A stretch of DNA of 32,580 nt from a virus: IMG/VR virus record IMGVR_UViG_3300032607_001599, positions 1-32,580 of that record; one strand, written 5' to 3'. A model generated the notes under the pieces. That model was not told where the DNA came from. It made no database searches and worked only from the letters and a program-made list of their open reading frames with translations. Of the stretch, positions 1-25,632 are shown in pieces. A program made the translations under genes and the position numbers. Positions within the stretch are counted from its first letter, which is position 1. Every line of letters starts with the position of its first letter.

Positions 1-507
1 ATAAATCATACCAGCAGCTTCTTGAACTTTTGATTTAAGTGCTGTCTCAAAAACTGTTTTTGCTCTTTCTTTGAACTCTTCGGAAAGATCTTCATTTCCG
101 AAGAGTGCTTTAACGTCTTCTTCTACATCAAATTCAATTTCCTCCTCCTCTTCCTCTTCTTCAAAATCCTCTTCGGTTTCTTCTCCACTTTCCTCTACAA
201 TTTCCTCTTCATATTCCAACTCTTCTTCTTCTGCTGTCATTGCCTTAGCATTGACGATATCTCTAACAGTTGCAATATTTGGATTGGCAAGTTTGGCCGA
301 ATCGTCGGTAGATCTATAATTATCTGGTGTTGGCCCACCAAGATCAGTGATAGATTGTCCTGGAGTAGCGGAAACAAATCCCGCACTGTTCATCATCGGA
401 TCTCCAGGTTGTGCTGTAGCATTTACCGCCGATTTTGTGGATTTAGTTGCTTTAGTTGAGGCAGACATTGGTGCAGCACCCATTTCTTGTAAATTACCAG
501 TTGACAT
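1..507 (-). CDS. gp22: Prohead core scaffold protein gp22, C-terminus beyond left edge
   Basis: The ATG at 507 opens a frame that runs without a stop to base 1, giving 169 residues; the C-terminus lies outside the window. The N-terminal third is rich in Ala, Ser, Thr and Pro. Residues about 95-130 are an almost unbroken run of Glu and Asp, and the frame continues into the segment DVKALFGNEDLSEEFKE and then a helical KTVFETALKSKVQEA. This acidic, helical make-up and the place directly after gp21 fit the T4 scaffold, which fills the prohead and is then degraded by gp21. LQE at residues 6-8 fits the (L/I)xE cleavage rule of that protease. A GGAGAG ribosome site sits about 8 bases before the ATG, and an exact late promoter lies at 553-560. 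The major capsid gene gp23 would be expected next, beyond the edge. Confidence 0.9.
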   Translation of the reverse strand, partial: MSTGNLQEMGAAPMSASTKATKSTKSAVNATAQPGDPMMNSAGFVSATPGQSITDLGGPTPDNYRSTDDSAKLANPNIATVRDIVNAKAMTAEEEELEYEEEIVEESGEETEEDFEEEEEEEEIEFDVEEDVKALFGNEDLSEEFKERAKTVFETALKSKVQEAAGMIY

Positions 508-562: not shown

Positions 563-1207
563 TTAAAGATTTCTTAGATAGTTATTGAACAGTCCCAAAA
601 GTTTTTGTTCATTTAATTTTTTATCTGGACTCATTTTCATTGTTAGAAGTCCATTTAAAGTTTGTTCAGCAAGTCTTCCGTTTTGCCAAACCCATTCCTT
701 CCCTTCCATAATACCTTGTACAAAGGCATCAGGGGCAGAAGGATCTGATACAATATCAGCAGCTGTGGATAACATAAAGTCATCACCAACGTATTTAACA
801 CCATTGCGTTCAATAAGAGATCCGACACCTCTAGATGAAACGCCAAGTTTCACTCCCTCGTCAAGAAGAGATTTAGCAATATTTCCCATTGGGGTATCAA
901 GAATTTTTGCTTTACCAATGAAGTTATTGCCCTCAGATTTTAAACTTGTAATCATGTGAGACACGCGATCCAAATTTACAGTAGGTCCATCTGGATGACC
1001 CAACTCTCCCAATGCTCTACCACAGGTTATATACTTATCAGTATACTTTTTAACTTCTCTTTCTAAAATTGGAAAGGGATAACAACGACCATTTCTATTT
1101 GTAACTTCAGCTTGAAGAAATGGTCCAGTAATATACAAATTAGTTTTACCGTTTTTTTCTTCCTTAATTACTTTAATAGATTCAATCTGTTCTGTGATTA
1201 GTTTCAT
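563..1207 (-). CDS. gp21: Prohead core protease gp21
   Basis: 214 residues, the usual size for T4-like prohead proteases (peptidase family S77 in T4). It cleaves scaffold and capsid proteins inside the prohead after (L/I)xE. Visible landmarks: NRNGRCYPFPIL at about 38-48, the His motif GELGHPDGP with His71 as likely catalytic base, GVSSRG with Ser124/Ser125 as candidate nucleophile, and ADIVSDPSAPDA near residues 150-161, which probably supplies the third catalytic residue. ITE at residues 4-6, LAE at 179-181 and LNE at 198-200 are possible self-cleavage sites, as known for T4 gp21. The ATG follows the stop of the 177-residue gene by two bases (TAATCATG), so the two are probably translated together. 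The assignment of catalytic residues is by motif only. Confidence 0.95.
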   Translation of the reverse strand: MKLITEQIESIKVIKEEKNGKTNLYITGPFLQAEVTNRNGRCYPFPILEREVKKYTDKYITCGRALGELGHPDGPTVNLDRVSHMITSLKSEGNNFIGKAKILDTPMGNIAKSLLDEGVKLGVSSRGVGSLIERNGVKYVGDDFMLSTAADIVSDPSAPDAFVQGIMEGKEWVWQNGRLAEQTLNGLLTMKMSPDKKLNEQKLLGLFNNYLRNL

Positions 1208-6860: not shown

Positions 6861-8540
6861 TTAAACATAGTCCCACATATAACTGCGATCTCCATATTCA
6901 TCTACATTCCAATCATTTGGTTTAGCAGATACCCATCTATCTCCAGTATGTTTATCTACAATAACAACATCATCATCCAATCCATCTAAAATAAAACCAA
7001 ATGGTGCCATATCTTGATCAATCTGATTCTTTTGCTCATCATATATTCGTTTACGCACATCATTGTCAGTCATCTCCTTAAAATATGGTTGAACAACTAA
7101 CCAAGCAAATATCACAAGACACATTGCCAAATCATCATTCGCTCCCTGTTCAGCTTCAAATGATTGATTTCTTTGAATAAATGTGGTAAGTTCTGAAATA
7201 ATATCATAATCACTAAAAATTAATTTATCATCTTCGATCAAAGTTTTTAAATTGGAACATCCAATTTTTTTAACAGTCTTAGACATTTTAATTCCAAGTT
7301 GAGATTTACTACCAGAGAATCCTTGACCAACGATTTGTCCTGCTCTACCACGCATAGCACACATTAAAACATTATCATATTCCAAATCAAAATGAAGAAT
7401 ATTTGATACTTGCTCTCCAATATCATTTATTTCAACAAGAACATATGATTTATTATATGCATTTGCAACTTCATTAATAATGCTTGGGAAGAGCATTGGT
7501 TTAATTTGATTGTTTTTATATTTGCCAACAATTTTCCAAGGAAATTCTGTAATATCAAAAATGACAAATGCCGAATAATCATTCTCTGTTCCTCTTGCTA
7601 CATCAACTGTAATGAAGTAACTTCTGTCTTCTTTTGGCTCATCGTAAATATCGAGTCCTTTATTTTTCTTAATAGGATCTTCGAATGTGAGAGATTTTAA
7701 TTTAGAGCTAGAAATTAGAGTATCTGATGATCCAAGAAAATCACATTCGAATTCTTGTTGAAACTGTTGTGCCGACGTATTTGCAATAGTTTGCGCTTTC
7801 CATGTTGCATCACGCCCTGGAACCTCTGACCAATGAACTTCTGTGGGAATATATTCATTTCTCCCTCTTTCAGAATCATGCCACAATCGGTAAAAGTGAT
7901 TCATACCCTTTGGGGTAGATACAATAACTACTTTAGTTGTCTTACCTGAGGAAATTGTAGGATATACTGAACTAAAAAATTCATCTGCAATATGATTTGG
8001 AATAAACGCAAATTCATCCAAGAAGATAATATTAAATGACATACCACGAACTGCGGATGCAGATGTAGATGCGGCAATAATTTTAGAACCGTTTTCTAAT
8101 TCTAGGGATGCTTTGTTCCATACTTGGACACCTTGTTGCATCCATTTGGGAAGATTTTCATAAGATTTTTGTAATCTACCAAGAAGATCTTTTGCAGTAG
8201 ACGCCTTGTTTGCAAGAATACCCACATTTACATTATCATTAAAAACCACATAATGTAAAAGATATGAAACCACTGTAGTTGATTTTCCCGACTGTCGGGG
8301 CATCTTACAGATATTAAATCTATTGTTATGAAAATTATTGATTAATTTTTCTTGAAATGGGTATATGTCAAAAGAAACTAATCCCTCATCAAGAGAAACA
8401 ATTTTTATATATTTTTTAGTAAAATAAATTGGATCTTCTTGACACTTTACAAATTCTTGAATTTGTTCAGGAGTAAACTCAATGTCTACATTTGACCTTT
8501 TTAATAACGGATTACCTAAGTATAGATCATCATTTCTCAT
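6861..8540 (-). CDS. gp17: Large terminase subunit gp17 (packaging ATPase and nuclease)
   Basis: 559 residues; T4 gp17 has 610. It docks on the portal, pumps DNA into the head with ATP, and cuts the concatemer. ATPase domain: Walker A RQSGKST (82-88), Walker B IIFLDEF (171-177, with Asp175 and Glu176) and coupling motif VSTP (207-210). RNase H-like nuclease domain: acidic residues in TVDVARG (Asp313), VLVEIND (Glu370) and GANDDLA (Asp469/Asp470). All key residues are present, so the enzyme should be active. The ATG gives MRNDDLYLGNP. Only 14 bases separate it from the 653-residue gene, with no promoter between, so it is probably co-transcribed with that gene. Confidence 0.99.
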   Translation of the reverse strand: MRNDDLYLGNPLLKRSNVDIEFTPEQIQEFVKCQEDPIYFTKKYIKIVSLDEGLVSFDIYPFQEKLINNFHNNRFNICKMPRQSGKSTTVVSYLLHYVVFNDNVNVGILANKASTAKDLLGRLQKSYENLPKWMQQGVQVWNKASLELENGSKIIAASTSASAVRGMSFNIIFLDEFAFIPNHIADEFFSSVYPTISSGKTTKVVIVSTPKGMNHFYRLWHDSERGRNEYIPTEVHWSEVPGRDATWKAQTIANTSAQQFQQEFECDFLGSSDTLISSSKLKSLTFEDPIKKNKGLDIYDEPKEDRSYFITVDVARGTENDYSAFVIFDITEFPWKIVGKYKNNQIKPMLFPSIINEVANAYNKSYVLVEINDIGEQVSNILHFDLEYDNVLMCAMRGRAGQIVGQGFSGSKSQLGIKMSKTVKKIGCSNLKTLIEDDKLIFSDYDIISELTTFIQRNQSFEAEQGANDDLAMCLVIFAWLVVQPYFKEMTDNDVRKRIYDEQKNQIDQDMAPFGFILDGLDDDVVIVDKHTGDRWVSAKPNDWNVDEYGDRSYMWDYV

Positions 8541-8554
8541 AGTAATTTACTCAA

Positions 8555-10516
8555 TTAACAATTCCATTTACGAAGCGCCAGCGCCTTTCTAGTTGGGTGG
8601 CCCTTATCGTCCTCCATGGGACCATCAACGCCTCCCATGCGAGCACAGAATGACTTTCTTCTATTTGCGGATTTTGATCCAGGTTTTAATTTTGATGGTG
8701 GGGTTGTTACTGCCATTGAGAGTTTTGATCCAGGATTTTCTCTTCTGTAAGAAGCAATTCCGGTTTTATTTAAACCACCCTCAGGATTCTTTCCTTCCTT
8801 TCTTTGCCATGCCGCAGTTTCAGCAATGTTCAATTTTTTTCTCTTATTAATATAGGTTTCAATTACAGATTCATCACATACACTATCTTCATTTGCAAAA
8901 ATGAATGGTTTTGTTGGGTCATTAATTGCTGGGGTATACATGTAAAGAACTGCACCAGGATAAATTTTATCTATTGCTGCTTGAACTTCTTCTTTGGTAG
9001 GTCTTTGTTGTGTAGGAAAGAAAAATTTAATATTAATTACTTTGGTTCTCCAATTTAAAACAACTGAGTAAGTTTGACCTACACTGTAAATTGTTTTTGG
9101 TGCCTCATCAATTTGAGTCCCTTCTGGTTCATATGAATTATATTGTGCTGCCTGACGTTCAACTTCCCTATTTCGTTTATCCATATTATTTGCAATCCTT
9201 GCAACATTACCAAGAATAGGAACACCTTTCAAACCAGTTTCCAGTGCTTGTGATGGGGTTGGTCTTGGTGCAGAAGATGCAGTAGATGCAGTTTGTGGTT
9301 TAGGTGCCGAAGATGTATTGGTTGGTTTTGCAACACTAGAATAACCAGTACTATAGCTATCAGGTTTTAATGTACTAGGACGATTTGGCTGTGCATTATA
9401 TCTATTTGCCTGTTGCGGAGTATATGAAGGTATTGGACCAAATTTAGATGGAATACTTGTTTTTACTAATGTTGGATTTCCGACATTTATTCCTAATACT
9501 TTTTTTTGCACCATTGGAGAAGTAACTGCACCAATAGTACGTGGTGCAATTACTGTCCCAGTTCCCGGAAGTGAAAGCTCATCAATTTGATTCCCTTTTG
9601 GTTCGTAATGTGCTAATTGAGTTCCTTTGTTCTCTTTTTTAGCAAGTGGTAAATTGATCCCTCTTCTAATTTCTTTATATTTACCATCTATTTTTTCAAC
9701 AGCACCAGGATTTCCTAGTTTTAGACGTTCAACATCTCCTGGTGTCATTCCTCCCATACCAGTTGTTTTTTTACCCCCAACTTCAAAACTAGGTTGTTCA
9801 GTTATTTTTTTAACACAGTTTGGATATTTTTTACCAAACATTTTTTTCATTCCTTTTTTTTCATACCCTGCCCAACATGCTTCCTCCACACTCCCTTTAG
9901 GTACACAATTTGGAACCATTCTGTTCCCCTTTTTTTTGAGACCTTTTTGAATATAACTTTTCCAACATGCTTCTACTATTTTTTCTACCATATCTGAATT
10001 TATAGATTCAGATTTATTCCCCCAATTTGCAGCACCAACTTTACGACATTTTACAAGTGCTCCCGAAGCGTATGCACTCGGCCAAACACTGTAACGAGAT
10101 TTTACTTTAGTATAACATGCATCTTTTGTGCCACTACCTTTTCCTTTCTTGTCAGATTCTTCGTTCATTTTTGATTTATCTGTTGAAACGTAAGTTGGTT
10201 TTGCAGCACCAGATTTTCCTTGTTGTCCTGGATCTGCTGATTTCTTTCTTGCCGATGCAGAAAGTCTTTGAGCTTTTGTCATACTTGCTCTTTTTGAGGA
10301 TGAGACGCATTTAGGTGTTCCCTCTCCTGGCTCATCACTAGCACAAGTTCCCCCAGTTACAACATTCACCCAACCAGACTTCCCATCCTTTGATTTAGAG
10401 TTGCCAAACCAGGCACGAAGACCTTCTTCATTCACCTTTCTGAGTTTCTTTTTAGCAGGTTGTTCTGGTTTTCTTGCAATTGGTTTTGCATGAGAACATC
10501 CACAATCTTCTTTCAT
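8555..10516 (-). CDS. Cysteine-containing, lysine-rich mosaic protein (DUF5872- and DUF6321-like parts)
   Basis: 653 residues, function unknown. Order of parts: N-terminal CGC; residues about 30-112 with SGWVNVVTGGTCASDEPGEG and KSGAAKPTYVSTD; 131-160 with ACYTKVKSRYSVWPSAYASG; two tandem units EACWKSYIQKG (182-204) and EACWAGYEKKG (212-235), each ending PNCV; a Pro/Ser/Thr-rich linker (about 320-430); a small alpha/beta segment (475-560); and a C-terminal 568-653 block with WQRKEGKNPEGGLN, RRKSFCARM and final RKWNC. From memory the N-terminal parts resemble DUF5872 and the C-terminal block DUF6321, both common in marine T4-like phages. HYEPKGNQIDE (303-313) and SYEPEGTQIDE (461-471) are near repeats, each ending in I-x-E, the gp21 cleavage rule; ITE occurs at 238-240. 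A packaged, gp21-processed protein is my inference. It lies between gp16 and gp17 and has its own late promoter. Confidence 0.85.
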   Translation of the reverse strand: MKEDCGCSHAKPIARKPEQPAKKKLRKVNEEGLRAWFGNSKSKDGKSGWVNVVTGGTCASDEPGEGTPKCVSSSKRASMTKAQRLSASARKKSADPGQQGKSGAAKPTYVSTDKSKMNEESDKKGKGSGTKDACYTKVKSRYSVWPSAYASGALVKCRKVGAANWGNKSESINSDMVEKIVEACWKSYIQKGLKKKGNRMVPNCVPKGSVEEACWAGYEKKGMKKMFGKKYPNCVKKITEQPSFEVGGKKTTGMGGMTPGDVERLKLGNPGAVEKIDGKYKEIRRGINLPLAKKENKGTQLAHYEPKGNQIDELSLPGTGTVIAPRTIGAVTSPMVQKKVLGINVGNPTLVKTSIPSKFGPIPSYTPQQANRYNAQPNRPSTLKPDSYSTGYSSVAKPTNTSSAPKPQTASTASSAPRPTPSQALETGLKGVPILGNVARIANNMDKRNREVERQAAQYNSYEPEGTQIDEAPKTIYSVGQTYSVVLNWRTKVINIKFFFPTQQRPTKEEVQAAIDKIYPGAVLYMYTPAINDPTKPFIFANEDSVCDESVIETYINKRKKLNIAETAAWQRKEGKNPEGGLNKTGIASYRRENPGSKLSMAVTTPPSKLKPGSKSANRRKSFCARMGGVDGPMEDDKGHPTRKALALRKWNC

Positions 10517-10583: not shown

Positions 10584-10763
10584 ATGTCAGCTCTAATCGC
10601 CTGGGCACTTGCCAACCAAGCACTTATCGCAACTGTACTTTTTGCAGTTTCCGAAGCACTTGGAGCAAATCCAAAAGTCAAATCAAACGGTATTCTTTCA
10701 CTTATTCTTTTACAAGTTCAAGGTCAACTGAAGGCAAAGGGCGCAAAAGATGTTACTCCCTGA
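10584..10763 (+). CDS. Small hydrophobic protein, the only plus-strand gene
   Basis: 59 residues starting MSALIAWALANQALIATVLF and ending GAKDVTP. The first 26 residues form a hydrophobic helix with some polar faces; a second hydrophobic stretch GILSLILLQVQ lies at 36-46, and the C-terminus is Lys-rich. It is very like a small unknown protein I remember from many cyanomyoviruses, which supports it as a real gene; that recall is unchecked. Its codons are typical and it has a late promoter at 10548-10555. Its last 11 bases overlap the end of the convergent minus-strand 137-residue gene. A membrane or holin-like role is possible from size and hydrophobicity, but Asn and Gln within the helix make that uncertain. 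Confidence 0.75.
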   Translation: MSALIAWALANQALIATVLFAVSEALGANPKVKSNGILSLILLQVQGQLKAKGAKDVTP

Positions 10764-11166
10764 GAGTAATATTAGGACAAGTATCCACCCAAGGAAAACA
10801 TAACCGTATTTCACCACCAAGTGATTGGCATTCTTTGGTGTGGCATACGGTTTTATCTATATCTTTTTCTGAGAATATTGGAGCAGGGATCTCTACTGGT
10901 TTTTCTCCAGTTTGTCTCCAGTAATTATCTATAGCTCTATCAACATCTCGTCCAATTCTTCTTTTGAGTTTCTCATCATCCTTAACGATAAAATCATTAA
11001 GAATAGTTTGTGGAAAATATTTTCTTTGTATCTCGTCAAGTATATCCCACAATCCAGTTTGAGACATACCAGTACATTGCGACAGGGTAACAACTACAGT
11101 TGACAATACAACTGCAATTATAGCATACTGTTTTATGTCTGGTTTCTTTTTTCCAAAGTTAATCAT
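10753..11166 (-). CDS. Membrane-anchored protein with cysteine-rich tail, unknown function
   Basis: 137 residues from the ATG at 11166; an in-frame TTG one codon earlier is less likely. A basic N-terminus (FGKKKPDIKQ) is followed by one hydrophobic segment at about 14-28 (YAIIAVVLSTVVVTL), so it is predicted to be anchored with the C-terminus outside the cytoplasm. Cys31 follows the segment, but SQC is not a proper lipobox. The middle is charged and helical (DDEKLKRRIGRDVDRAIDNYW) and the tail has four cysteines (108, 113, 123, 130) that could form disulfides in the periplasm. It follows the 65-residue gene by three bases. The topology recalls small lysis proteins such as an inner-membrane spanin, but I see no specific match. 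Confidence 0.75.
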   Translation of the reverse strand: MINFGKKKPDIKQYAIIAVVLSTVVVTLSQCTGMSQTGLWDILDEIQRKYFPQTILNDFIVKDDEKLKRRIGRDVDRAIDNYWRQTGEKPVEIPAPIFSEKDIDKTVCHTKECQSLGGEIRLCFPWVDTCPNITLRE

Positions 11167-11169
11167 CAA

Positions 11170-11395: not shown

Positions 11396-11824
11396 CTATT
11401 CTAAGTCTTTTATTGGTATTGATGTTTCTTTTTCCTGTTTTATAAGTTTTAGTAATTCTGCTGTAGATCCAACATATAATGCATTATTAGTTACGGTCTG
11501 TGGTCCATGATATGTATCATTAAGGTCTTTCATTTTTTTATGAAGATCTGCTAATTTATCTGCAACATCCGCAACATTTTTAATCAATTGTCCAGCAACT
11601 TCGTATGCCCGAGGATGATCTGAACTTGCAGCAACATCAAGTATCCCATCAACTGCTTCTTGACCCTTTTCAATTAAACTATACAATTGGGCTCTACTAT
11701 AAGAATAATCTTTTTCGGCATCCTCAGATGAAGTTGATCTTTGAACAATAGAATTTAACTCAGATTTTTTTATAATTTGAGTTTCTACATTTAATGAATC
11801 TGAAATTTTATCATAACTATCCAT
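11396..11824 (-). CDS. gp16: Small terminase subunit gp16
   Basis: 142 residues; T4 gp16 has 164. It recognises DNA for packaging and stimulates the gp17 ATPase. The central part EDAEKDYSYSRAQLYSLIEKG, then IDVAASSDHPRAYEVAGQLI-like helix and VADVADKLADLHKKMKDL, gives the long antiparallel coiled-coil pattern and the DHPRAYEV.. block typical of T4-like small terminases. The position directly after gp15 is standard in this group, although here gp16 and gp17 are separated by four inserted genes, one of them on the other strand. It starts five bases after the gp15 stop. Confidence 0.88.
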   Translation of the reverse strand: MDSYDKISDSLNVETQIIKKSELNSIVQRSTSSEDAEKDYSYSRAQLYSLIEKGQEAVDGILDVAASSDHPRAYEVAGQLIKNVADVADKLADLHKKMKDLNDTYHGPQTVTNNALYVGSTAELLKLIKQEKETSIPIKDLE

Positions 11825-17919: not shown

Positions 17920-18121
17920 GTTTTTCAAGTATCAATTTCATCATATCTTTAATTTCACTCACATCAGATTTTAAATTTTCAATTTCTTGTCTCTCTTGTA
18001 GTTTTCTTTCTTTATGTGTCATATACTCATTGTATTCGTTATAATTTGTGTTAATTACAGCTTTTGAATAATTATCCCTAGACAATGAAGAATGCCCTTC
18101 GACTTGAATTAAATTTATCAT
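17915..18121 (-). CDS. Small coiled-coil protein coupled to the 2503-aa gene
   Basis: 68 residues. The N-terminal half MINLIQVEGHSSLSRDNYSKAVINTN resembles a small conserved protein of cyanomyoviruses as I remember it (VxGHxxLxRD..S.AvvNTN..EY..Y). The C-terminal half (ERKLQERQEIENLKSDVSEIKDMMKLI) is a predicted coiled coil. Its ATG overlaps the stop of the giant gene by one base (TAATG), so the two proteins are probably made in a fixed ratio and may assemble together. Function unknown. Confidence 0.78.
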   Translation of the reverse strand: MINLIQVEGHSSLSRDNYSKAVINTNYNEYNEYMTHKERKLQERQEIENLKSDVSEIKDMMKLILEKL

Positions 18122-21100
18122 TATGCTAATGCAATTGCTCTTAAGTCTCTAATTTTTGGAACAAATGCTTGATTAGTTCCGTTCATAACAATTTTAATCA
18201 TAAACCCACTGAATGGGGGTAAGTTATCTTGAGAATATAAGTATTCTAAAAATTCACCTTCACCGCCAGGAACAGATGCTTTGACATCATCATTAGGAAG
18301 CCCACTATTATTTGCTAGGTCAATTATAGTGTATGCAGTATTGTCTGTAGATCCAGACTTTCTTAAGTTATCATACCCTGGGAATGGAGAATATGTTTGA
18401 TCTGCATCAGGCAAATCTGATCTAAATAATCTATAGAATACTCTTATTTCATTTGTAGAATCTCGGAATGCATCAAATCTAACTTGTAATGAAGATGCTG
18501 GTGTGGCAAGGGAAACTCTTTTAGAAACATATACTGCAGCATGAGGATCGCCCAAAGAAACATTTACACGACGATCAGTTACATAATTTGAAATTGGCTT
18601 ATCAATTCTATTGGAAGTAGTAATAATATTCAATCGTTGCAAATCAATAATTGGGGAAAGGCGATCATTATCAGTATTGAATACACACTCTAGTGCAAAT
18701 GATTTATTTCCAGGTAATGTAGATAATCTGGCAGTTTCATTTACTTGAGAAGCTATTATCATAGGTTGTTCATAATAATTAATATCATCAAGTGTTATTG
18801 GATTAAATCCGTAATCAGTAAATGAAACCTCTGTACCATTAACACTAGTACCAGTAGTAGTTCTGGCTCTTGCAACAAGAAATGTTCCTTCTGGAGTTAA
18901 TCTAGCAATATTCGGAGTTAAGGCTTCAAACTGTATATTTTGAGTTGCTTTAGCAACAAATCCACCTCCACTTTTAGTGATATTAAATGATAGTGGTTGA
19001 AATCCTCCAGAATTACCAGTACTTCTATCTACACCATTGGAAGCTCTATCAATTTTTATTGCATAAGTGTCTAATGATATTGGATCTGATATTGTTGCAG
19101 ATGAAAGATTATGAGTTTTATTAATTCTTCTTAAAGAAATCCCATTGAATTCATATTTGTTAACTGAGGAATTTACCGAGTGTGTTTTAACTAAAGTGTT
19201 GTCAATTGCTCTAGTAATTCCGGTGAGACTATTTCCACTAACGCCTTGATATGAAATGATTTCATCGTTTATAACAATATACCCAGGATTAGTTGAAGAT
19301 ACGCCGACGTTTTCAAAATTTGTAAGTATTGATATCGATGTTAACGGAATATTTGTAGTAGAAGTATTTGAGTACTCTGCACTTAAAGTAGTCGCCGGAT
19401 AATCACTATCTAAAGAAGAAATAATAACTTGGTTACTGGCTGAATGCATTCCATGATTTCTATGCGAAATTATCATGTGTTGCCCATCTCCAGTTCCAGA
19501 TGAACTGATTGTGGTTGGAATTGCTGGAAGTGTGGATGCTACACCAACATTATTAAATGCTAAATTGTCCAAAGTATTAAATGTTCCTTGAACTTGGTTC
19601 AACACAAGTTGATTAATAGAAGTTATTACACCAACATTAAATCTAACATTTTGACTTGTTGCTCCGAGTTGTGCGGATACTACATCTCCAACAGAATAGC
19701 CTCCACCCCCATTAGTAACAGTAACTATACCAATATTACCTGCGATTACTTCTACTAATGCAAGTCCACCAGATCCATTTCCAGTAACTGCATTTAAACT
19801 GACATTTTCGTAATAGAAATTTCCTGTAGATGGGGTAATTCCAGATCCAACATTATTTACCGTTAAATTAGGAGTAGATATTGTTATACTTCCAATACCA
19901 ATTATTCCTGAAGTTTTTACTAATTTTGCTGTAGCATTTGTATTGTTAATTTGGGTAATTGTTACCCCCGCATTTAGGAATGTGGAGGGAACAGTGCTTC
20001 CAAGACCAACTACAATTTCATTTGAAGGAGTAAATATTGGATTTGGTCTTAACGTAACAATGTTACCATTACCTTCGGTTAAGACTGGATTATATGCAGT
20101 AAAAACTCCAGCATCCGTTACAAATTGTGCTCTGTGCATGACGAATTTGAGATCTTCATATTGACTTGCGTCCCAAGTTGATCCATTTTGAGATTTAAAT
20201 AGTGATCCCATATATGGTTGCTGGGATATAACTACTTGTCGATCCACACCTAACCCAACAGTACTAATATCAACTTTACCCATTTGAGAAATCCAAGCAT
20301 TATAACTATTTGACATAGATAATAATACTATTGCGTATTCAGTGCCTCCCTGTAAAAAGATTGGAGATCTGAAAGTAAATTTAGTTGCCGCAGTTCCATT
20401 ACTAGAAACATTAACCTGTGATGGCTCTAGAGTAACTTCAGCCATAGGAACAATTGTAGTTGTTGGGTATCCGGCAATCATTGTTCTAATTTGGCATGTA
20501 ACGGGAATTGCCAGATCTTTTGATTGGAAGAATACATCAATTGATGTCACAAAACAATCTTCACCTTTAGGAATTAGTACTGATTCTGCAAGAGGGTCAA
20601 TCCATTCCCTCTCCACTCTAACATTAAATGTTGTTTTAGTTGCAACTCCCTGTTCTACCCCGTTTACAATTCTAGATTCTGATAGATTTAATGTTTGAAC
20701 ATCAGCATTTCTTGTGGAAATAATAGATCCTTGTTTTATAGATAAAATCCCACTAGAAGTAAATTTATGTTCTCCAGCACTTTCTACTGTTCCCGATATT
20801 GTAGAATTTGTAGAACTATTTGTAAGTCTAAAATTCTTAATTCCACTTGTAAATTGTGGATTTGTTACAAATTTTGGATTTGGTATGTATAAAGAACCAA
20901 TCAAAGTTGCAGATGTATCAGATATCAATCGTAAATTATTAACAGTGGCTTCTGCGCCACTAGTTTCTCCCTTCAGTCTTGTTCCAACTTTAACTCTACC
21001 TTTAAATGCTCCAGTTGCCATATCTGATAGACTAGCAGTATCAATATTCAATATAGTAGAAGTTGCAGAATAACCAAGACTCATTTCTTGAAGTGTGTTA

Positions 21101-24100
21101 TAAGGATTTAGTAGATATTCTGTAGTTGGTGCATTGTATGGACCATACTTGTGATTTGCCACCGCAAGTCTTGCAGTGAACTGTTCGAAGGAAGCTGACG
21201 TATTGACTGTTGTTGTGAGAGATTTAATTTTTTCTCCACCTAAAAATACACCACTATTCATAGTAACTTCTAAAAGTTTCGGGATACAATATTGAGTCAT
21301 ATCTACATTTTCAAAGAAAACGTACATTTGAGTTGACGGTTTAACTGATTTCGCAATGAATTCAATATTTCTTTCCCTACAATAAGGAATCACTTCTCTA
21401 CTTACAAATTTTGCTTCAATTTCGGTTATATCAATTCTTGGTGTAATTTTATATTGAATACCCGCCCTATTCTGTTGTTGTTTTACATCATATTCTGCAA
21501 GGTATGTTTCAACAGAGGTGTCTCTAAATGTGGTCGTTCTGGATCTTCTACTATGTCTACCGCCTCCACTAATATAGCTATTCTGTATAATTGTATTTGT
21601 AACAACTGTTCCCTTTTGAGGTTTACCTCCAGGTTTTACTGTTTTGCCAGTCCATACAGTTTGCCAGGCTTTCCAATCAATAGGAGAAAGCCCTGTGTTT
21701 GGATCTGCTTGATATAAAGTAAGAAATGCATCATAATTACCACGCTCTTCCACTCTTTGTGGTTCGAGCATGGATTCTTCAATCCAAGTATCAGTTTCAG
21801 GATTTAATACAATGTTACTAATCCAAGTTATCACAGCGAATGGATTTACATTTACAACTCCTGACGCAAACCTTTGTTCAATTAAAGGAATTTCAGTATA
21901 CTTAAGACTAATCAAATCTCCTGTTCTTTGAATATTTGCATTTCCTAAATCTGTTACAAATCTAAGATCTGCTGCAACATTTGCAGTTGTCCCAATTCCA
22001 ATGGCAGAGGCAGATCCAAGTAAAAGATCTAATGATGTAGTATAATGAGATGGGCGCATATTACCATCTTCGGCGTCAATGCTAGCTTTAAAATCAGGAC
22101 TTGCTAAATTATGGGCACCGTGAGATGTAAAATTATCTATAAAAATGCCATTTTTAAATCTATCTAATCCAGTTACTGGATCCTTAATTGAAAGAGTTTG
22201 AGTATCCAATTCAAGCAAACTTAATTGAGTATAGTACTCAATGTTTTTAATACGATTTTCCAGAACACTAATATCTTTCATTTGATATCTTTTGTGCTTT
22301 GTAAATGAAATAATTAAATCACTTTGAGAATTGTATGAATATGGAGGAATTGTAACAGTTGCAACTTCAAAGGCGTCACTTGTCAAAATTGGAGCAACTG
22401 GATTTTCTGCAGGTTCGCCGGAAACTGATTCAAAAAAACCATTTTTTGTCAATATAATTTTATCAATTCTTGGAAGACGATAAGAATAACCTAAGACAAG
22501 AGATTCATCTATAACTACATTTGTAGTAACTGATGACCCATCATTTGGAAATATTCTTGATACAAATTCAAATGGAGCAAAACCACTGTTAATATTATAA
22601 TCAGATACTCTAGGTCTTAAATCTATTACATCTGAATGTCTAAGAGTATCGTAATCAATTCTAGGTAAATCAATACTATCATTAACCACTCTTGGTGGCC
22701 AACTTAAGTAACAAAAGAATTCTCCATCATCTGCTGTTGGAGTGCTGTAAAAATCAAAAATTACTGTAATTTGTCTTGATGGTGCGGAAAATTCAGATTT
22801 TCTTATAATTCTACCAAAATCTAAGTATTCTAATCTTTCCCCACTATCGAGTGAAAAGTTAGCGTTAATTTTTTTATCACCTGGATTAATATTAGTAATA
22901 GTTGCACTTACTTGAGATAATTTACAAGTAAATCTTTCATTTAATTGAAATTCTCTTTCGTTTTGATATACAAATTCCAATGTTGTGGAAGTCGATGATA
23001 CCACTCTTCCAGCAGCACCAGAGGACTCTCCAATAAATTCATCACCAGATGGAACTTCTAAAAGGTTTCCAACTATATTGGATAATATTAAAGTTGGAAT
23101 TGTTGGAATGTTATTATCATCAGATTCAAAAATAGCGTGAATTCTTAAAACTTCGGCTTTGTTTAAAGAAATTTCTCTATCTTGAACTCTAGTTCCATAA
23201 ATTGAACCATAAGTTAAACCATCATTTAGAGATGTATTTCCAGTGGATCCTGATGCAGGATTATTAGATTTGTTTATTGTAAGTTTAGCGCATCTAGTTA
23301 AAACCTTAGATTTTGCATTAACTTTAATTTTTCTTAAAGTTCCAGTAAAACGAGCATTTGCATCAGCTGAGACACTTAATTGAGAAAGTATTATTGTTTT
23401 TGCATCCTGGGAAAATATTAATTTTCCTCTGGATAATGGCTCTACCGTACCATTAGAGTATGTAACTAAATACCTTTCTTCATCAAATGGTTCAAATACA
23501 GAATCTACATCTGATTCAATGATAACTGCTCCACTTGAACTTACAACTATTGGATAAGTTTTTCTAAAAACTAATTGGGTGTTATCTAAGTTTATATTAC
23601 TTATATTTGAATGAGGCATTGCTTGGAAAAATGATGCCTTGTCCGAATCTTCAAGTTCTGGTAAAACAACTCTAATACCACCACTAAGAGTTTCGGTAGA
23701 AGGCAATCCCCCATCACATACATCAGAAACTGTAGTCACCCCAACTATGGTAACTGTATTTAAATTTTGTCCAATTGAGGTAACTCTATTGTAAGTTATT
23801 GTAGAAAATCCACTTCTAGTATATGCTAAGATATCATTTACAAATAAGGAAGCTCCAATTTTTCTGGTAATTAACCCCGTGATTGTACATACTCCAGCAG
23901 AAGCAGCACTAATAGTTAGAGGCAGATCTGAAATATCATCTTGAATCGAAAGATCTAAATCACCACTAAACGTGGTTACACCTACGCTAGAATATAAAGA
24001 TTTAATATCAAATAAAGTGCTATCAGTTACACTACTAATAGTTGGTGATGAACTAATACCATTTACAGAAATTGATTCTCCAACAATAAAAGTTCCACTA

Positions 24101-25632
24101 CCAGAATTTAATGTTAAAATATTACTATTTACAATTGATGCAGTAAGATATCCTTTAGAACCACTACTGTTACCCTCAATCAATGCCGGGACACTTAATG
24201 TTATGCTACTCGCAATTGAAACTTTTGTGAAGGTATCAATGTCATATAAAAATGCTTCAAATTTACTTGTTTGATTTGCATATGCTGCGTCTTTTAATTT
24301 AAAATCATAACACCGTGCTCTACCAATTTCCTCCCCAGGTGCAACTAATTTATTTGCCCCAATTCTTTGACTTCTTAGACTTAAAAATGTAGTTGTTCCA
24401 AATCCAACAATAGGAGATCCAGAAACATTATCCAGCGTCATTCTATTTCCAAAATTAATTGGTAACGAATAAGTATCTACAGTATTAGAAGTTTCTGGTT
24501 TACGAATATCTAAAAATGTAGAAGATGGTTTTTCAATTTCATATCCCTTCACATATGCTTTTCCTGGAGAAATTTGAAGTGTGAATAAATCTTCGGATGG
24601 GGTATTTCCTTGTGCAGTTTTTTGATTTTCAAAGTAAATGCCGGAATTTGAAACTCTGTCATTTAATGATTCTCTTGCAAATATTTCAAATGGTTTGATA
24701 TAATAATCACCTGATTCATCATAAGTTCTTCTTGCAAGTTCATCTTGTAGGAGATTTAAATTGCTGGTATTTACAAAATCTGCAGTTGCACCATTTTCAA
24801 CTCGCATCAATTCAATGAAGTCTTCATCATTGAATTGATCTAATGGTTTTTTAATTAATGTTGTGCTTAATTTAAATCTATCTGCTCCAGGGGCAGCAAA
24901 ATTAGAAAATCCTTGAGAATTGTCATTTAATGTTGAGTCATCAAAAGATGTTACAATTTCTTCACTAATTAGTAATCCAATTCTATAACTTGGTAAATTA
25001 TTATATTGATCTAATATTAAAGTCTGTGATAAAACTTTTGCAAAAAAGCCTCTAATGAAATAAATACCTTCTTCAATAAATGCTGCTGATCCTACGGATG
25101 TTGAATTTTCAGAAATACAAGTCGCAAAAGGATTTCCTGATTTAATTACACTCAATCCATATTCAAGATCTTCTTCTACTAGTAATCTTTCCCCATCAAT
25201 AAATTTACTAGTTTCAAAATCGGTATTTGATGAAGAAAGATATCTTATATAAAGTGTATTGTTTCCCCTTTCAGATTCTTGGTCGGTTAATGTATTAACA
25301 ACTAATGCCTTGACTCCAGAAGTTTCTCCAACTATAGTCTTATTAATTAATTTATTGGTATATGAATTTACTGAGATACCAAAAAATGTTGCATCTATCT
25401 GAACAGAATTGTATTTGAAGTCAAGTCCAGTCTGCCCAGGAATAACCTTTGCACCCTCTTTAAACACATAGGAACCAAATTTTTCTATTTGATTTTGTAA
25501 AATTGTTTGAAGAGTGGTTAATTCTCTTGCTTGAATCGCAGTTCCTGGTTTGAATAGAACTCTATGATAATTTTTGTCTTCTTCAAAATCATCATTATAT
25601 GGAATAACATTGAGGTTGGTATTTTGTGGCAT
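18121..25632 (-). CDS. Giant DUF4815-type virion structural protein (baseplate or fibre)
   Basis: 2503 residues. The N-terminus YNDDFEEDKNYHRVLFKPG followed by QARELTTLQTILQNQIEKFG is the DUF4815 start found in large marine phage virion proteins. Parts in order: DUF4815-like region with EYLKGYEIEKPS-type and RYLVTYSNG segments; a region about 1380-1450 with SGGGRHSRRSRTTTF, VIPYCRERNIEFIAKSVKPS and YVFFENVDMTQYC, matching the common phage structural pattern (R.....f...lkPnT..y.FF..vd); a Gly-rich segment near 1960 (VTNGGGGYSVGDVV); a beta module near 2100-2165 (VINDEIISYQ, GITRAIDNT, KTHSV); and the conserved end FSGFMIKIVMNGT ... IRDLRAIALA. It starts four bases after the gp8 stop, inside the baseplate operon. 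It is probably a large baseplate-periphery or fibre protein taking the place of T4 gp9-gp12; this role is inferred. Confidence 0.88.
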   Translation of the reverse strand: MPQNTNLNVIPYNDDFEEDKNYHRVLFKPGTAIQARELTTLQTILQNQIEKFGSYVFKEGAKVIPGQTGLDFKYNSVQIDATFFGISVNSYTNKLINKTIVGETSGVKALVVNTLTDQESERGNNTLYIRYLSSSNTDFETSKFIDGERLLVEEDLEYGLSVIKSGNPFATCISENSTSVGSAAFIEEGIYFIRGFFAKVLSQTLILDQYNNLPSYRIGLLISEEIVTSFDDSTLNDNSQGFSNFAAPGADRFKLSTTLIKKPLDQFNDEDFIELMRVENGATADFVNTSNLNLLQDELARRTYDESGDYYIKPFEIFARESLNDRVSNSGIYFENQKTAQGNTPSEDLFTLQISPGKAYVKGYEIEKPSSTFLDIRKPETSNTVDTYSLPINFGNRMTLDNVSGSPIVGFGTTTFLSLRSQRIGANKLVAPGEEIGRARCYDFKLKDAAYANQTSKFEAFLYDIDTFTKVSIASSITLSVPALIEGNSSGSKGYLTASIVNSNILTLNSGSGTFIVGESISVNGISSSPTISSVTDSTLFDIKSLYSSVGVTTFSGDLDLSIQDDISDLPLTISAASAGVCTITGLITRKIGASLFVNDILAYTRSGFSTITYNRVTSIGQNLNTVTIVGVTTVSDVCDGGLPSTETLSGGIRVVLPELEDSDKASFFQAMPHSNISNINLDNTQLVFRKTYPIVVSSSGAVIIESDVDSVFEPFDEERYLVTYSNGTVEPLSRGKLIFSQDAKTIILSQLSVSADANARFTGTLRKIKVNAKSKVLTRCAKLTINKSNNPASGSTGNTSLNDGLTYGSIYGTRVQDREISLNKAEVLRIHAIFESDDNNIPTIPTLILSNIVGNLLEVPSGDEFIGESSGAAGRVVSSTSTTLEFVYQNEREFQLNERFTCKLSQVSATITNINPGDKKINANFSLDSGERLEYLDFGRIIRKSEFSAPSRQITVIFDFYSTPTADDGEFFCYLSWPPRVVNDSIDLPRIDYDTLRHSDVIDLRPRVSDYNINSGFAPFEFVSRIFPNDGSSVTTNVVIDESLVLGYSYRLPRIDKIILTKNGFFESVSGEPAENPVAPILTSDAFEVATVTIPPYSYNSQSDLIISFTKHKRYQMKDISVLENRIKNIEYYTQLSLLELDTQTLSIKDPVTGLDRFKNGIFIDNFTSHGAHNLASPDFKASIDAEDGNMRPSHYTTSLDLLLGSASAIGIGTTANVAADLRFVTDLGNANIQRTGDLISLKYTEIPLIEQRFASGVVNVNPFAVITWISNIVLNPETDTWIEESMLEPQRVEERGNYDAFLTLYQADPNTGLSPIDWKAWQTVWTGKTVKPGGKPQKGTVVTNTIIQNSYISGGGRHSRRSRTTTFRDTSVETYLAEYDVKQQQNRAGIQYKITPRIDITEIEAKFVSREVIPYCRERNIEFIAKSVKPSTQMYVFFENVDMTQYCIPKLLEVTMNSGVFLGGEKIKSLTTTVNTSASFEQFTARLAVANHKYGPYNAPTTEYLLNPYNTLQEMSLGYSATSTILNIDTASLSDMATGAFKGRVKVGTRLKGETSGAEATVNNLRLISDTSATLIGSLYIPNPKFVTNPQFTSGIKNFRLTNSSTNSTISGTVESAGEHKFTSSGILSIKQGSIISTRNADVQTLNLSESRIVNGVEQGVATKTTFNVRVEREWIDPLAESVLIPKGEDCFVTSIDVFFQSKDLAIPVTCQIRTMIAGYPTTTIVPMAEVTLEPSQVNVSSNGTAATKFTFRSPIFLQGGTEYAIVLLSMSNSYNAWISQMGKVDISTVGLGVDRQVVISQQPYMGSLFKSQNGSTWDASQYEDLKFVMHRAQFVTDAGVFTAYNPVLTEGNGNIVTLRPNPIFTPSNEIVVGLGSTVPSTFLNAGVTITQINNTNATAKLVKTSGIIGIGSITISTPNLTVNNVGSGITPSTGNFYYENVSLNAVTGNGSGGLALVEVIAGNIGIVTVTNGGGGYSVGDVVSAQLGATSQNVRFNVGVITSINQLVLNQVQGTFNTLDNLAFNNVGVASTLPAIPTTISSSGTGDGQHMIISHRNHGMHSASNQVIISSLDSDYPATTLSAEYSNTSTTNIPLTSISILTNFENVGVSSTNPGYIVINDEIISYQGVSGNSLTGITRAIDNTLVKTHSVNSSVNKYEFNGISLRRINKTHNLSSATISDPISLDTYAIKIDRASNGVDRSTGNSGGFQPLSFNITKSGGGFVAKATQNIQFEALTPNIARLTPEGTFLVARARTTTGTSVNGTEVSFTDYGFNPITLDDINYYEQPMIIASQVNETARLSTLPGNKSFALECVFNTDNDRLSPIIDLQRLNIITTSNRIDKPISNYVTDRRVNVSLGDPHAAVYVSKRVSLATPASSLQVRFDAFRDSTNEIRVFYRLFRSDLPDADQTYSPFPGYDNLRKSGSTDNTAYTIIDLANNSGLPNDDVKASVPGGEGEFLEYLYSQDNLPPFSGFMIKIVMNGTNQAFVPKIRDLRAIALA

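Follow-up and report, generated by a model that had tools for sequence, protein, structure and literature searches.

A mosaic protein of a marine T4-like phage as a probable string of internal head proteins cut apart by gp21

P0001, a mosaic protein encoded by a T4-like marine phage, is best read as a polyprotein of internal head proteins that is cut by the head maturation protease gp21, a reading that we consider probable. It is based on the observed sites, their fixed positions ahead of modules, the presence of gp21, the mobility of the modules and the existence of free-standing counterparts, together with mass spectrometry (MS) and annotation of S-SCSM1 virions taken from publications and records; for P0001 itself we infer that it enters the core and is cut there, and likewise the retention of the pieces, their ejection and their function. 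The protein would be synthesised as a single chain that goes into the prohead core, where gp21 would cut it after a hydrophobic-x-Glu ahead of each module (at E30, E119, E182, E212, E240, E313, E471 and E566). At most nine pieces of 28-158 residues would result, several of them with paired cysteines, to be packed alongside the DNA, with their delivery to the host probable.

The window, meaning the whole 32.6-kb stretch of IMG/VR DNA that was analysed, derives from a T4-like marine myovirus and carries a minus-strand series of structural genes that runs gp13/14/15, a gp16-like gene, P0001, gp17, gp18, gp19, gp20, gp21 and the start of gp22 (Table 1). Relatives of P0001 occupy the same interval between the gp16-like gene and gp17 in phages S-SM1, S-T4 and S-SCSM1, and the gp16-gp17 interval is a published hot-spot of variable genes (PMC3037559). 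The PHROG matches of P0001 are of unknown function. Directly upstream of P0001 lies a gene for a 138-residue protein with a hydrophobic N-terminal stretch (10753-11169; phrog_3316, unknown), and a 2503-residue protein of phrog_358 (function unknown) is encoded at 18121-25632, in a position that matches a cyanophage gene annotated VrlC.

Table 1. Coordinates of P0001, its predicted pieces and neighbouring genes in the window (a slash marks a predicted cut; ΦxE, hydrophobic-x-Glu)
Feature	Position	Strand	Basis or remark
gp22-like scaffold protein, partial	1..507	-	sequence and synteny; N-terminal LQE/M resembles gp22 of S-PRM1 and S-SCSM1
gp21-type head maturation protease	563..1207	-	phrog_207, E 2e-82
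gp17 large terminase	6861..8540	-	Pfam/PHROG
Putative mosaic polyprotein P0001, 653 aa, pI 9.8	8555..10516	-	ORF; flanked by gp16-like gene and gp17
DUF6321 domain (PF19846), residues 567-653	8558..8818	-	E 1.2e-21; free-standing version known
Residues 472-566, ending IAE566/TAAW, with small beta-beta-alpha-beta domain (480-535, pLDDT mostly >90)	8819..9103	-	AlphaFold2
Joint motif copy 2, YEPEGTQIDE, residues 462-471	9104..9133	-	DNA pattern
Pro/Ser-rich 158-aa cassette, residues 314-471	9104..9577	-	absent from relative L003 via exchange inside motif
Joint motif copy 1, YEPKGNQIDE, residues 304-313	9578..9607	-	DNA pattern
Segment 241-313, ending in joint YEPKGNQIDE313/LSL	9578..9796	-	motif and site comparison
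CW-type module 2, residues 213-240, ending ITE240/QPS	9797..9880	-	ΦxE exactly ahead of CWxGY in 117/171 contexts
CW-type module 1, residues 183-212, ending VEE212/ACW	9881..9970	-	module/site comparison
GKGSG-DACY-KVKSRY module, residues 120-182, ending IVE182/ACW	9971..10159	-	ΦxE precedes module in 99/102 contexts
WFG-SKSKDGK module, residues 31-119, ending MNE119/ESD	10160..10426	-	ΦxE precedes module in 41/48 contexts; E119 at least 90% conserved (P0001 and 34 relatives aligned)
Leader, residues 1-30, ending VNE30/EGL	10427..10516	-	E30 at least 90% conserved (same alignment); low pLDDT 1-32
gp16-like (small terminase) position	11396..11824	-	synteny with S-SCSM1, S-T4, S-SM1

Translation of the ORF bears out the three sites named in the original prediction, HYEPKGNQIDE at residues 303-313, SYEPEGTQIDE at 461-471 and ITE at 238-240, and also the borders at which they had been placed, with Cys/Lys-rich modules up to residue 240, a Pro/Ser-rich region of low confidence next and a confident fold from about residue 480. 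The number of sites had been set too low, because accepting V or M at P3, as usage in relatives warrants, adds E30, E119, E182, E212 and E566, each of which opens a recognisable module. The P3 residue is I at E182, E240, E313, E471 and E566, and V or M at E30, E119 and E212, as it is in relatives. Eight joint sites give nine predicted pieces of 30, 89, 63, 30, 28, 73, 158, 95 and 87 residues, which would be small and basic (28-158 residues, pI 8.7-10.4) provided that the cuts occur. At the DNA level, the pattern YEP[EK]GxxIDE has two matches in the window compared with none in all 100 dinucleotide-preserving shuffles.

AlphaFold2 models P0001 as beads on low-confidence linkers (mean pLDDT 58.8), with six of the eight sites in or next to such linkers. 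The other two, E182 and E566, fall inside predicted helices, which counts against cleavage, as do three further ΦxE sites (E3, E178 and E553) that lie away from module starts. The only Pfam match is DUF6321 (77.5 bits against a gathering score of 28.5), and P0001 has no known effector domain and no embedded peptidase domain in that search; comparison with the PDB gave nothing at E <=0.001 by Foldseek and no relative by sequence. The paired cysteines of several pieces suggest metal binding or disulfides. An IPIII-like leader on P0001 itself was considered and rejected, as the N-terminus reads MKEDCGCSH.

The gp21 protease of T4 cleaves after L/I-x-E (PMC9026906), and the V or M at P3 of E30, E119 and E212 departs from that rule, a point against the cleavage reading. 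At the gp23 maturation site, T4 has FLTE/A, and marine phages have FL[TSA]E/[AS]P, MLNE/V, FLGE/I (HTVC008M) and ILTE/T. A gp21 gene is encoded in the same window as P0001.

A telling regularity concerns the position of ΦxE, defined as [ILMVF]-x-E and scored at a fixed offset ahead of each module anchor in 466 proteins. It occupies the fixed spot ahead of WFG/SKSKDGK in 41/48 contexts, GKGSG-DACY in 99/102, CWxGY in 117/171 and DUF6321 in 35/64; the upstream columns next to the site are near random, and the motif read in reverse gave 0, 14, 0 and 1 hits, respectively, over the same stretches. Kinship can inflate such counts, and contexts were therefore reduced to independent ones, with fewer than 4/10 identical upstream residues. 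The site is retained in 137 of 201 of these (WFG 22/28, GKGSG 35/37, CW 51/88, DUF6321 23/41, DUF3008 6/7), although these counts are not blind, because the anchors were picked after the first examples had been seen. When the same offsets are moved 6-11 residues upstream, the ΦxE fraction in independent contexts is 0.00-0.08. Five unrelated module types thus share an arrangement in which ΦxE comes first. Proline is found at P1' in none of 422 joints, versus 3.5% for other Glu residues and 1.5% where hydrophobic-x-Glu lies outside joints; since the module anchors partly fix the P1' residue, the YEPEG joints form a cleaner subset, and here too the count is 0/107.

Some observations pull the opposite way. 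Exact ΦxE is missing in 42% (CW) and 44% (DUF6321) of independent contexts, which weighs against cleavage. In favour of cleavage, internal DUF6321 copies carry it at 33/47 T4-like loci versus 5/27 other loci (Fisher p = 2.6e-5), a contrast that is partly one of long fusions and short proteins. The CW modules were rejected as a gp21-free control, exact ΦxE being present in unclassified loci as well, and their failure to separate T4-like from unclassified loci also counts against the cleavage reading.

The original prediction had asked whether YEPxGxQIDE stands before domain borders elsewhere, and it proves to be a recurrent joint in many mosaic chains that marine T4-like phages encode. Viral contigs scanned for the pattern gave at least 120 stretches with at least 127 occurrences in mosaic proteins, between diverse modules. 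Among the matches listed, 113 of the 116 distinct [YF]E[PA]xG contexts continue into hydrophobic-x-Glu, including five one-residue-shorter forms that retain it, and 93 of 105 motif loci are T4-like by their neighbouring genes, the remainder being mostly short contigs. Not every member of the group has the long joint, which is absent from the genomes of HTVC008M and Syn9 and, as a DNA pattern, from P-SSM2. The motif is shared beyond P0001, and its essential part appears to be hydrophobic-x-Glu rather than YEPxGxQIDE in full. In sequence comparison, hydrophobic-x-Glu is the minimal element of the joint, and YEPxGxxIDE its long form.

The long form invites another explanation, namely that YEPxGxxIDE is a mere linker and a patch of DNA homology for module swapping, and that the chain stays uncut in the virion. 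In L003, otherwise near-identical to P0001, precisely the 158 residues that separate the two motifs are missing, and the crossover point falls within the motif; codon choice in the motif, too, is more uniform than usage predicts (CCA 91% vs 50%, GGT 90% vs 56%). From this missing segment and this uniformity, the joint probably doubles as a module-shuffling site. A role in recombination is no rival to cleavage, because short joints that lack the long motif keep hydrophobic-x-Glu. As an explanation of the joint by itself, DNA homology is unlikely: ΦxE precedes modules where there is no YEPEG, and hence no homology to exchange, the hydrophobic P3 is kept in the one-residue-shorter variants, and P1' is free of Pro. 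That the motif is instead a short binding sequence docking an uncut protein on scaffold or capsid seems very improbable to us, since docking needs neither a site before every module nor the exclusion of Pro after Glu, although the CTS peptides of T4 are both targeting signals and cleavage sites (PMC9026906). Least probable of all, in our estimate, is that P0001, whether cut or not, belongs to the neck, tail or baseplate rather than to the head interior. Its gene does lie among neck and tail genes, and the S-SCSM1 record annotates neighbouring products as tail fibre proteins; against this stand the IPIII-like leaders on neighbouring genes and the lone DUF6321 genes of T7-like phages, which are flanked by connector/scaffold genes on one side and capsid genes on the other. 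The packaged, gp21-cut polyprotein of the original prediction appears to fit the comparative evidence best, taking together the site grammar at five module types, the Pro-free P1' position, the stand-alone equivalents, the gp21 gene of the same genome and the S-SCSM1 virion annotation.

The mosaic proteins carry several unrelated domains per chain in many combinations, and some of these domains also occur alone. Lone DUF6321 proteins have about 80-110 residues, and 74 of 148 DUF6321 instances start within 10 residues of the N-terminus; the T7-like phages with a lone gene in the position described above are Jormungand, KBS-P-1A and S-B28. Relative to the DUF6321 anchor, the free protein mostly starts 3-5 residues ahead and the predicted cut in fusions lies 2-3 ahead. 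DUF3008 begins MPAVSKAQQRF when free and reads SE/KAVSQAQQ when fused, so that in both families the free forms start no more than about 1-3 residues away from the predicted cut. Among 60 mosaics scanned with Pfam, DUF6321 was found 27 times, DUF3008 7, DUF5661 6, DUF192 5 and DUF5824 5, with a few nucleotidyltransferase and Hint domains and no peptidase among the main matches.

Individual chains illustrate the range of cargo. DUF192 is embedded in L163 (1643-5062, minus strand, 1140 residues), between WFG and GKGSG, and in about 20 other mosaics. A 950-residue mosaic in L314 (2445-5297) combines a cytidylyltransferase-like domain with DUF5824, as though the virion cytidylyltransferase, normally a protein of its own, had been taken into the chain. 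In L261 (1235-1507) and L291 (6013-6366), a leader ending in ΦxE (MQTFKQFLE and MRYKEILE, respectively) is fused straight to a CW module; L291 has a second, WFG-like module, and the two resemble minimal one- and two-module forms. Several modules that directly follow YEPEG joints in L065 (6998-7660), L102 (4114-6201), L106 (363-2024) and L110 (1933-3636) are Gly/Ala-rich and hydrophobic, of the IAPLVAAGLAAGAALAG type, and are possibly membrane-active.

Evidence from virions comes from S-SCSM1, whose record labels as virion proteins the P0001 homologue SSCSM1_29, the mosaic SSCSM1_92, the free DUF3008 protein SSCSM1_93 and the NMNAT SSCSM1_91. The label attaches to the S-SCSM1 homologue and refers to the virion generally rather than the head. 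The S-SCSM1 paper reported 45 virion proteins by MS from CsCl-purified particles and named NMNAT among them, noting that proteins such as NMNAT might be carry-over. In S-SCSM1, the free DUF3008 protein with this label (L608, 7627-7836) ends in KRTFKEFLEYIE, which is like a capsid-targeting leader at the C-terminal end. The N-terminus of the S-SCSM1 NMNAT, MKSFLQFLKE/A, is an IPIII-like leader resembling MKTYQEFIAE/A of T4, as is MKKFSAFLNE/A of the S-SM1 cytidylyltransferase T4-GC190, which was detected by MS in virions. A strict leader pattern is found in 48/76 and 34/39 distinct N-termini of relatives in the two families, some of the misses being start-codon errors. NMNAT adjoins YEPEG-type mosaic genes in 54/86 cases, and the second leader-bearing family adjoins DUF6321-type genes in 34/98; in the window, this family was not seen between P0001 and gp17.

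More tentatively, P0001 may exemplify a general modular system of marine T4-like phages, in which a small protein placed behind ΦxE would enter the prohead, be released by gp21 and be delivered with the genome, with YEPxGxxIDE acting as both cut site and recombination patch for the exchange of cargo. If so, many unannotated marine phage proteins would become predictable sets of virion-delivered peptides with exact cut points that can be sought in existing proteomes, a tailed phage could run a polyprotein strategy through its head protease, and the variability of the gp16-gp17 region could in part be explained.

With regard to known systems, P0001 matches the DUF6321 (PF19846) proteins of cyanophages and pelagiphages above the curated cut-off; the family has no described function, and a literature search found no paper naming it. 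The internal proteins IPI, IPII and IPIII of T4 resemble P0001 in their small basic products (predicted for P0001), their hydrophobic-x-Glu sites and the presence of an encoded gp21, and leaders of the form MKxFxxFΦxE occur on genes neighbouring the relatives of P0001. They differ in being separate genes with one leader each, whereas P0001 is a joined chain with a site per module and no IPIII-like leader. The polyvalent proteins (Iyer et al. 2017, PMC5512222), such as DarA and DdrB of P1, are likewise multi-domain mosaics thought to accompany phage DNA, some of them processed and packaged in the head, and the analogy to polyproteins has been drawn for them (PMC5512222). Their proposed release is by embedded peptidase domains, whereas the candidate protease for P0001 is the separate gp21; P0001 has none of their effector domains, and some other mosaics have nucleotidyltransferase domains. 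The E (ejection) proteins of SPN3US are head proteins cut by a gp21-like protease after a short Glu-ending motif, but their processing is chiefly the removal of an N-terminal propeptide rather than the release of a string of modules. A literature search, with subscription journals mostly outside its coverage, found no description of gp21-cut polyproteins of the P0001 type. Internal proteins cut by gp21 are a known kind; their arrangement as a string of modules, as proposed for P0001, would be new.
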